A stretch of DNA of 64,000 nt from Pseudoalteromonas tunicata (lineage in GTDB: Bacteria; Pseudomonadota; Gammaproteobacteria; Enterobacterales; Alteromonadaceae): positions 186,001 through 250,000 of the forward strand of contig NZ_CP011033.1 in the NCBI RefSeq assembly GCF_002310815.1. The letters run 5' to 3'. A model generated the notes under the pieces. That model ran no database searches and was not told the origin of the DNA. It saw nothing but the letters and a program-made list of their open reading frames with translations. Shown one piece after another: positions 13,042 through 14,121 of the stretch; positions within the stretch are counted from its first letter, which is position 1, and each line of letters opens with the position of its first letter. A program made the translations under genes and the position numbers.

Positions 13042-13150
13042 GTTATATGCACTAAGCACATAATTGCTCACAGCCAAACTATCAGGTCAAGTCTGCTTTT
13101 ATTATTTTTAAGCGTGTATTATAAGCCCTACACAAATTGGGAGATATATC
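13042..13150 (+). promoter_or_regulatory. qacE cassette leader with internal promoter
   Basis: This stretch starts at the cassette boundary GTTATATGC and matches, from memory, the first bases of the class 1 integron 3' conserved segment (GTTAGATGC...), including the known promoter region of qacE. A -10-like TATTAT is at 13117-13122, and the ribosome site GGGAG lies 9 nt before the ATG. Comparison with a reference In2 or Tn402 sequence is needed to count differences. Confidence 0.75.
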
Positions 13151-13483
13151 ATGAAAGGCTGGCTTTTTCTTGCTATCGCAATAGTTGGCGAAGTAGTCGC
13201 AACATCCGCATTAAAATCGAGCGAGGGCTTTACTAAGCTTGCCCCATCCGCCGTTGTCATAATCGGTTATGGCATCGCATTTTATTTTCTTTCTCTGGTT
13301 CTGAAATCCATCCCTGTAGGTGTTGCTTATGCAGTATGGTCGGGACTCGGCGTCGTCATAATTACTGCCATTGCCTGGCTGCTTTATGGGCAAAAGCTTG
13401 ATGCATGGGGCTTTGTAGGTATGGGGCTCATAGTTAGTGGTGTAGTAGTTTTAAACTTGCTTTCCAAAGCAAGTGCTCACTAA
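13151..13483 (+). CDS. qacE: Small multidrug resistance efflux protein QacE, full length
   Basis: 110 residues with four membrane helices, the SMR signature Glu14 (VGEVVATSALK) and the conserved W63SGLG region. It matches the QacE sequence I remember from Tn402-type integrons with apparent differences only at residues 8 (Ala), 16 (Val) and 79 (Tyr). It keeps the true C-terminus (SGVVVLNLLSKASAH), unlike the truncated qacE-delta-1 of most clinical integrons. It exports quaternary ammonium compounds and dyes by proton antiport as a dimer. It is a complete cassette with its own leader and attC in a chromosomal, integrase-less array. Percent identity is from memory and must be checked. Confidence 0.92.
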   Translation: MKGWLFLAIAIVGEVVATSALKSSEGFTKLAPSAVVIIGYGIAFYFLSLVLKSIPVGVAYAVWSGLGVVIITAIAWLLYGQKLDAWGFVGMGLIVSGVVVLNLLSKASAH

Positions 13484-13496
13484 TAAAAAGTCAGTC

Positions 13497-14121
13497 ATCT
13501 AATCAGGTAGCCGGAGGTCTCTAACCTCCAGCTCCCACACCACCCATCATGCGCTTTTTATTAACAGGAAGTGCAATGGGCGGTTGGTCTTCCGTAATGA
13601 ATATTGATCCAAATATTTCTCAATGACACTAAACCTTGTGAAACTAAATAGTCATTGCCTAGCGCCATGTTAATTCCATTTGTTTTTGAACTTCTACAAG
13701 GGCCTTTACTGGTGATACCGCATGTTATCCAGCTCTCCCCGAATAAGAGCATTAACTTTCATTGCACAACTGCATCATTTTCGGTGGCCGTTAGATCCCA
13801 TGACTTCGCTATCTTGTACTAGCTCGTCTTCAGCCTACGCCTAATATGATGTTTTTGTTCATCTATTTATTATAAAGAATTTTCGCGGCTTTTTCCGGGT
13901 TATCTCTCACGATTTAGCCCTTACCATTCGCTAGTGTCTATCTTTTAATAACAGTATGTTATTTAAACGGTGATCTTCCTACAGAGGACTTTCACCTCAT
14001 ATGTCAATGCCCATGTCGGGTGTACACCAGGCAATTATGGATTGGACGTATAAAGCTTGGCTGGCGCTCATTCTTCGCTAATTTTAGCCAAGCTTAATAC
14101 GCCTCTATTGCGGCGTTAGTT
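13497..14121 (+). other. attC of the qacE cassette, split by a group II intron
   Basis: The R'' box ATCTA (13497-13501) plus AC (14026-14027) reconstitutes ATCTAAC, a perfect RYYYAAC, once the 524 bp between are removed. The arms CAATTATGGATTGGACG and AAGCTTGGCT pair with AGCCAAGCTTAATACG and TCTATTG. R' is GCGGCGTTAGTT with GTT at 14115-14117. Without the intron the site would be about 100 bp. Confidence 0.85.
13502..14025 (-). mobile_element. ORF-less group II intron in the R'' box of the qacE attC
   Basis: On the minus strand it starts GTACACCCGACATGGGC, close to the GTGCGCCCGGCATGGGC-type start of bacterial group II introns, with the downstream GAGGTGAAAGTCCTC element. It ends with a hairpin (GAGCTGGAGGTT-AGAG-ACCTCCGGCT) and CTACCTGAT, a domain VI-like 3' end. 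Only 524 bp are present and no reverse transcriptase remains. A 9-bp stem (ACCGCCCAT/ATGGGTGGT) precedes the last hairpin, but a convincing domain V is not recognised. Ends are fixed by exact restoration of the attC box. It could be a deletion derivative that needs a helper protein in trans. Confidence 0.7.

Follow-up and report, generated by a model that had tools for sequence, protein, structure and literature searches.

A gene cassette with a full-length qacE lies in a cassette array on the second replicon (contig C2; 980,475 bp) of Pseudoalteromonas tunicata, within the 64,000-bp stretch C2:186001-250000 that was analysed in this study and is referred to as the window. We consider it quite probable that this cassette (13043-14115; window positions are used unless a contig is named) is a sister of the qacE cassette of class 1 integrons, from which it split before their clinical spread, and that its attC, the recombination site of the cassette, is of the type found in its own genus and may have been joined to the gene by recombination through a group IIC-attC intron. 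The window lineage likely belongs to the environmental cassette pool, being neither the direct donor of qacE to class 1 integrons nor a copy recaptured from these. It is widely held that a qacE cassette was part of class 1 integrons before sul1 was added, and the earlier note on this DNA had referred to this order of events as a published proposal; it is indeed in print (PMC3382206, PMC5460862, PMC8618304). A search of the open-access literature found no earlier report of the window cassette.

The attC sites were identified with a covariance model, which was used in place of a scan for the terminal-repeat attC pattern because the latter was too loose. The nine training rows of the model consist of six attCs from other Pseudoalteromonas genomes and three sites of the window. 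The cassette is composed of the following features.

13042..13150, + strand: 5′ end and leader of the qacE cassette; three differences from Tn402, at cassette positions 5, 76 and 79
13151..13483, + strand: qacE, full length, 110 amino acids, SMR family efflux protein (predicted function)
13495..13501, + strand: left attC remnant, the R″ box, cut after ATCTA and common to Tn402; the R751 alignment ends here, and the intron boundary is taken from other copies
13502..14025, − strand: remnant (524 bp) of a group IIC-attC-like intron whose reverse transcriptase open reading frame (ORF) is largely deleted (join near 13724/13725)
14026..14119, + strand: right part of the attC of the qacE cassette, Pseudoalteromonas type (106.4 bits; training row)

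Comparison with the qacE cassette of Tn402

Over 461 positions comprising the leader, the gene and the R″ box (13042-13502), the window is 96.3% identical to the qacE cassette of Tn402 on plasmid R751 (NC_001735.4), a match of 756 bits that is far beyond chance. The earlier note had proposed that the leader and gene are close to the class 1 segment and had named an identity well below 90% over the cassette as speaking against this; the value observed for the leader, gene and R″ box lies above that limit. The two sequences differ by 15 mismatches and a 2-bp gap. Fourteen of the mismatches fall in the first 439 bases and one in the tail; by feature, 3 are located in the leader, 11 in the gene and 1 past the stop codon. 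Eight of the gene mismatches are silent, and the remaining three change amino acids (A8, V16 and Y79 in the window; V8, I16 and H79 in Tn402), exactly at the positions 8, 16 and 79 given in the earlier note. At the gene level, the divergence from Tn402 qacE is thus 3.3% (96.7% identity).

The window cassette and the Tn402 cassette agree from their common 5′ boundary through the leader and the 110-aa gene to the R″ box. Because both lineages share this boundary and the R″ box, their common ancestor would probably already have been a cassette. Past R″, however, the R751 cassette carries another attC that contains no intron, and it lies beside intI1 and tni genes; the window cassette differs in all of these respects. 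The first base of the window cassette is 13043, next to the G (13042) of one GTT, and its last is 14115, the G of another GTT (14115-14117). Although GTT is therefore present at both ends, the attC is split by the intron and the attC upstream is set apart by a miniature inverted-repeat transposable element (MITE). No plasmid or Escherichia coli record covers at least 80% of the whole interval 13042-14121 in one place, because the intron splits the attC and its right part is not that of Tn402.

As the earlier note had claimed, the gene keeps its natural C-terminus: the 110-aa ORF at 13151-13483 reaches its natural end, unlike qacEΔ1 of the class 1 3′ conserved segment. The latter is 96.4% identical to the window up to cassette position 394, where the match ends, and in clinical integrons it is fused to sul1 and lacks both the C-terminus and an attC; none of these features is found in the window cassette. 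The protein scores 196.2 bits against the QacE model NF000276 of NCBIfam (curated cut-off, 185; R751 QacE, 200.8) and also matches the SMR family model PF00893 (118 bits, E 2.7e-34). EmrE chains match it as well (E 1.3e-27), with residues 2-110 aligned and Glu14 kept. Judging from this family membership, the window QacE is predicted to be a proton-driven efflux pump for quaternary ammonium compounds. A promoter scan found no sigma-70-like promoter in the leader of either the window or the R751 cassette.

The split attC and the group II intron

The earlier note had described the cassette as complete and as having its own attC, and one of its alternatives spoke of an undamaged version. This part of the description does not hold, since the attC is split at the R″ box by the 524-bp intron remnant. 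The Rfam model RF02001 (D1-D4 region) matches at 13916-13748 on the minus strand (74.3 bits, E 7e-14), and other copies in the genus, in which both ends can be seen, served to set the boundaries 13502 and 14025. Both halves of the intron are dispersed repeats in the genus. They match the two ends of ORF-bearing introns, such as that beside ltrA in a class 1 integron of Klebsiella (L003). An intact intron-encoded reverse transcriptase is absent from the window copy: the ends are separated by approximately 524 bp, while L003 has ltrA between the same halves.

The ribozyme domains, the orientation opposite to the cassette and the insertion at R″ are those of group IIC-attC introns; the Rfam model does not name this subclass, so that the assignment rests on place and orientation. 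According to a published account (PMC7923331), introns of this subclass insert at R″ (TTGT/T) against the direction of the cassette, and the window remnant agrees with them in orientation and in position at the R″ box. It departs from them in the largely deleted reverse transcriptase ORF and in its 5′ exon, which reads TGGT/T. A IIC-attC intron has also been reported in the qacE attC of a Shewanella integron (PMC9229058). The intron-split attC of the window is probably a poor substrate for cassette excision at present.

The part to the right of the intron (14026-14119) shares 91-94% identity with six attCs that lack an intron, each from a different Pseudoalteromonas genome other than this one. 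It does not align with the Tn402 qacE attC, and the homology to R751 stops at the R″ box (ATCTA|A). The comparison of the two attCs proposed in the earlier note therefore revealed different types past R″, and the window cassette does not have the attC that characterizes the Tn402 qacE cassette of R751.

Class 1 alleles and nearest relatives

Class 1 copies of qacE are nearly invariant. Among the best 5000 plasmid records, 4999 are at least 99% identical to R751 qacE over the shared part (mostly positions 1-391/394), and the 14 listed plasmid records that cover the full 598-bp cassette are 99.5-100% identical to it. We also compared 47 class-1-like copies site by site, leaving out matches less than 95% identical to Tn402. 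Forty-one of them differ from R751 at position 392 only, and no copy carries more than a single one of the 13 states that set the window apart within positions 1-394. The near-identity of class 1 copies, which number in the thousands, together with the 3.3% divergence of the window, would make the split between the window and Tn402 lineages older than the spread of class 1 integrons. In a maximum likelihood (ML) tree of 35 genes, which were chosen from a larger number of loci (80 loci are listed in genome_contigs), the class 1 alleles group together to the exclusion of the window, with an ultrafast bootstrap of 92; in this tree, the window allele is not nested among them.

Rooting of the qac tree with all outgroups was attempted and dropped. 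The root was ambiguous, and the polarity of the differing sites was therefore read from the nearest outgroup clade (L029, L030, L032, L033 and L034), which includes qacK. At the 11 differing gene sites, this clade has the window base at 8, the Tn402 base at none and neither at 3. The qacK clade, consisting of an Aeromonas plasmid locus (L144) and the chromosomal loci L029, L030 and L032-L034, including one from Pseudoalteromonas sp. G4, also encodes an SMR pump, with 82-85% amino acid identity. At the DNA level, the identity is 76-77%, and the leader is not shared, the match beginning at cassette position 107. The loci L030, L032 and L034 each contain an integron integrase 44-47% identical to IntI1. 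Another locus from this genus group (L024) matches that of Pseudoalteromonas sp. G4 (L032) at 100% identity across 1867 bases, in agreement with the assignment to Pseudoalteromonas.

The window allele appears isolated in the collections searched. With a 460-bp query, only 2 of the 108 Pseudoalteromonas genomes gave a qac match, namely this genome and another at 76%. The best matches were 69% among 394 genomes sampled from the order and 77% among 369 sampled from the class, besides one 96% match in each sample that ends at position 394 and probably represents qacEΔ1. In genome_contigs (best 80 of 546), three other full-length genes with 96-97% amino acid identity adjoin an IntI1 gene (99.7%), and the next relative is at 85%. 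Three relatives were found in viral contigs (best, 81%) and four records in a phage collection (best, 96.6%; none extends past position 394). Among the matches listed, the next non-class-1 relative thus has 77% DNA identity, compared with 96% for the window allele.

When the Tn402 qacE attC was used as the query against the 108 genomes of the genus, the single hit was a partial one (81 of 146 nt, 82% identity) on contig C1 of this genome, at a distance of approximately 1.1 kb from the intact intI. No relative of this attC was found in the other 107 genomes, in each of which up to 7 candidates were scored. Three further genomes with a match, two of them from another family (78-82%), came from the 369 sampled for the class.

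Integrases in the genome

Neither a gene at the level of IntI1 nor one at the level of Sul1 was found in the genome, the best matches having 46% and 30% identity, respectively. The region C1:2265662-2267807 (10646-12800 of locus L141) holds the intact intI, which is 46% identical to IntI1, and, approximately 1.1 kb from it, the attC resembling that of Tn402. Other IntI-like genes are each present in two frame-shifted pieces, at C1:2394213-2395150, C2:911911-912848 and C1:2669660-2670605; the first two of these have near-equal scores, as if duplicated. On C2, only the two pieces at 911911-912848 match IntI1 at E ≤ 1e-5, and the array in the window (C2:186001-250000) is therefore without a nearby integrase. 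With several attCs and no intI nearby, it represents a cluster of attC sites lacking a nearby integron integrase (CALIN).

Origin of the cassette and alternative explanations

IntI-mediated exchange normally moves a gene with its attC, so that a switch of attC at R″ calls for some other mechanism. The two attCs diverge at the target site of the intron, which suggests intron-mediated attC exchange, and PMC7923331 attributes to Leon and Roy (2009) the proposal that group IIC-attC introns join attCs to genes by homologous recombination. Accordingly framed for this cassette, intron copies at two places would have recombined, joining the genus-type attC to the qacE body. We put this forward tentatively, as the least certain step of the proposed history. 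Still more doubtful, in our estimation, is the wider reading that qacE, as the cassette on which clinical class 1 integrons were founded, occurs in nature with two unrelated attCs whose join lies exactly at a IIC-attC intron, so that, in the nearest chromosomal relative of qacE, the intron has been caught in the act of giving a gene a new recombination site as in the Leon-Roy model. Alternatively, the attC difference may have arisen without the intron, either lineage having lost or regained its attC by some other route and the intron having been inserted later; we give this explanation somewhat less than even prospects. Exchange predicts that the intron is chimeric, and the counts of private differences, 9/158 as compared with 29/269 (Fisher p = 0.08), do not establish this. 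The coincidence of the swap point with the intron is, moreover, partly expected, because R″ is both the defined start of an attC and the target of IIC-attC introns. On the other hand, IntI exchange would keep the gene and its attC together, so that a route of another kind would still be required in the absence of the intron. In addition, the left half is more similar by 0.028-0.048 in the seven intron pairs that include the window; the 21 remaining pairs show a difference of no more than 0.004 (the pairs are not independent). The chimerism test used eight ORF-bearing or two-ended intron copies from 25 sequences, and the divergent copy L211 was left out of the second count, that of the pairs.

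The earlier note had offered two origins for the cassette, reception from a class 1 integron and a role as a possible source or close relative of the class 1 cassette. It is improbable that the cassette was taken up from a clinical or pre-clinical class 1 integron and then diverged in its marine host. Such an origin would be in keeping with the placement of the far outgroups on the class 1 side of the tree and with the two class 1 copies that carry one window state each. It is disfavoured by the 3.3% divergence as compared with near-invariant class 1 copies, by the position of the window outside the class 1 clade, by the nearest outgroup, which at the 11 sites agrees with the window 8 times and with Tn402 not once, by the lack of any class 1-level IntI1 or Sul1 match in the genome and by the genus-type attC; the divergence and the position outside the clade led us to reject a recent capture. 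Of the second proposal, the close relationship stands (96.3% identity, in an array on the second replicon of Pseudoalteromonas), but the role of source does not, since the attC is of the genus type and not that of Tn402. It is very improbable that the class 1 integron received its qacE directly from an array of this kind in Pseudoalteromonas, and this was rejected as the principal explanation on account of the differing attCs. The window does hold the closest non-class-1 allele among the matches listed, and the same genome has one attC like that of Tn402 qacE near its intact intI. This resemblance is, however, partial and recurs in two genomes of another family but in none of the other 107 genomes of the genus; qac matches are present in just 2 of 108 genus genomes, the second at 76%; and position 5 of the window cassette is a non-canonical base. 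The class 1 ancestor has been placed in Burkholderiales (PMC8618304). Finally, although class 1 qacE sequences are in principle frequent contaminants, we found no support for an assembly chimera or contamination by a class 1 integron, the probability of which is negligible. The allele is not a class 1 allele, the assembly comprises 2 contigs (completeness 100, contamination 0.03), and the MITE and the intron, which are repeats of the genome and genus, are present on both sides of the cassette and therefore speak against contamination.

Several observations weigh against the sister relationship and the history proposed for it, in addition to the chimerism result and the TGGT/T exon given above. 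The farther outgroups are mixed (L077 has 3 window-like and 5 Tn402-like sites, and L088 has 4 and 5), and the far outgroups join the class 1 side in the ML tree (support 92). Four metagenome proteins (88-90% identical) carry A8 together with I16 and H79 of Tn402. A window-like base is present in two class 1 copies, in L026 at position 132 and in L066 at position 295. At cassette position 5, the canonical core GTTRRRY (consensus as given in PMC7923331) is kept by Tn402 and not by the window. Furthermore, the protein database is clustered at 90%, so that alleles of the class 1 cluster are not separable in it, and the comparison with genome_contigs comprised the best 80 of 546; closer relatives may therefore exist.

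The sister relationship can also be set against cassettes whose source has been assigned. According to one paper (PMC8352920), qacI, catB3 and qnrVC1 are found in chromosomal integrons of predicted source taxa, which resembles the window in that a relative of a resistance gene lies in a chromosomal array with an attC of the host type. In those cases, however, the identity is 100% over the ORF and attC. The window cassette is therefore a relative and not a proven source, because its gene is 96.7% identical and its attC differs. In the same paper, qacE is absent from Table 1, which presents the source-assigned cassettes.

The cassette array and other mobile elements

Five attC matches were obtained on the + strand at approximately 2.7-14.1 kb of the window, all with E ≤ 6.8e-4; three of the five are training rows of the model. 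The features around the qacE cassette are as follows.

2687..2784, + strand: diverged attC-like site (29.3 bits, E 1.9e-5; outside the training set)
5430..5530, + strand: genus-type attC of the same array (77.8 bits, E 5e-19; training row)
8400..8525, + strand: diverged attC-like site with two MITE copies in tandem after it (23.7 bits, E 6.8e-4; outside the training set)
8523-8669 and 8673-8819: tandem MITE copies
12400-12801: lipoprotein-like ORF of the preceding cassette, 133 amino acids
12800..12898, + strand: attC of the preceding cassette, genus type (84.2 bits, E 8.4e-21; training row)
12896..13041, no strand assigned: 146-bp MITE at the attC/cassette junction, 5′ of the qacE cassette, flanked by repeated GTT (terminal inverted repeats and flanks read)
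14151..14564, + strand: gene of the next cassette, AHSA1-domain protein (PF08327, E 1.1e-18)

The MITE (146-147 bp) is present in 25 full-length copies in the same genome, with 90-100% identity. Flanks were read at 26 loci, 4 of which have no end match and 9 no right end. Both ends could be read in 13 copies. All of these have GTT on their left side, where 11 adjoin an attC-like GCGTT and 2 follow a further MITE copy in tandem; on the right side, 12 of the 13 have GTT. The MITE thus appears to insert at attC crossover sites. The element at 2782-4803 is the probable autonomous parent of the MITE: it shares its left end with the MITE, after GCGGCGTT, and resembles it at the right end, where GTT follows. 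It contains pieces of a DUF772 and DDE_Tnp_1_6 transposase, which looks split into two ORFs.

Two further elements were observed in the array. A second group II intron-like element at 5531-7400 lies directly 3′ of the attC at 5430-5530 and encodes a 429-aa reverse transcriptase on the + strand (TIGR04416, 369.6 bits); a relative of this element is found at an attC near the intact integron of C1 (L137). A transposase-like ORF at 9280-10266 weakly matches a REP-associated tyrosine transposase (44.6 bits, below the cut-off of 80), and its last 144 residues recur as a second ORF at 11553-11987.

Conclusions

The window cassette provides a marine relative of clinical qacE at 96% identity, with a large gap to the next non-class-1 relative among the matches listed (77% DNA identity), and can serve as an outgroup for reading the derived bases of the clinical gene. 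It also points to marine Alteromonadales-like bacteria as a group in which to look for the origin of the qacE cassette. In addition, the swapping of attCs by group IIC-attC introns becomes testable on a named gene.
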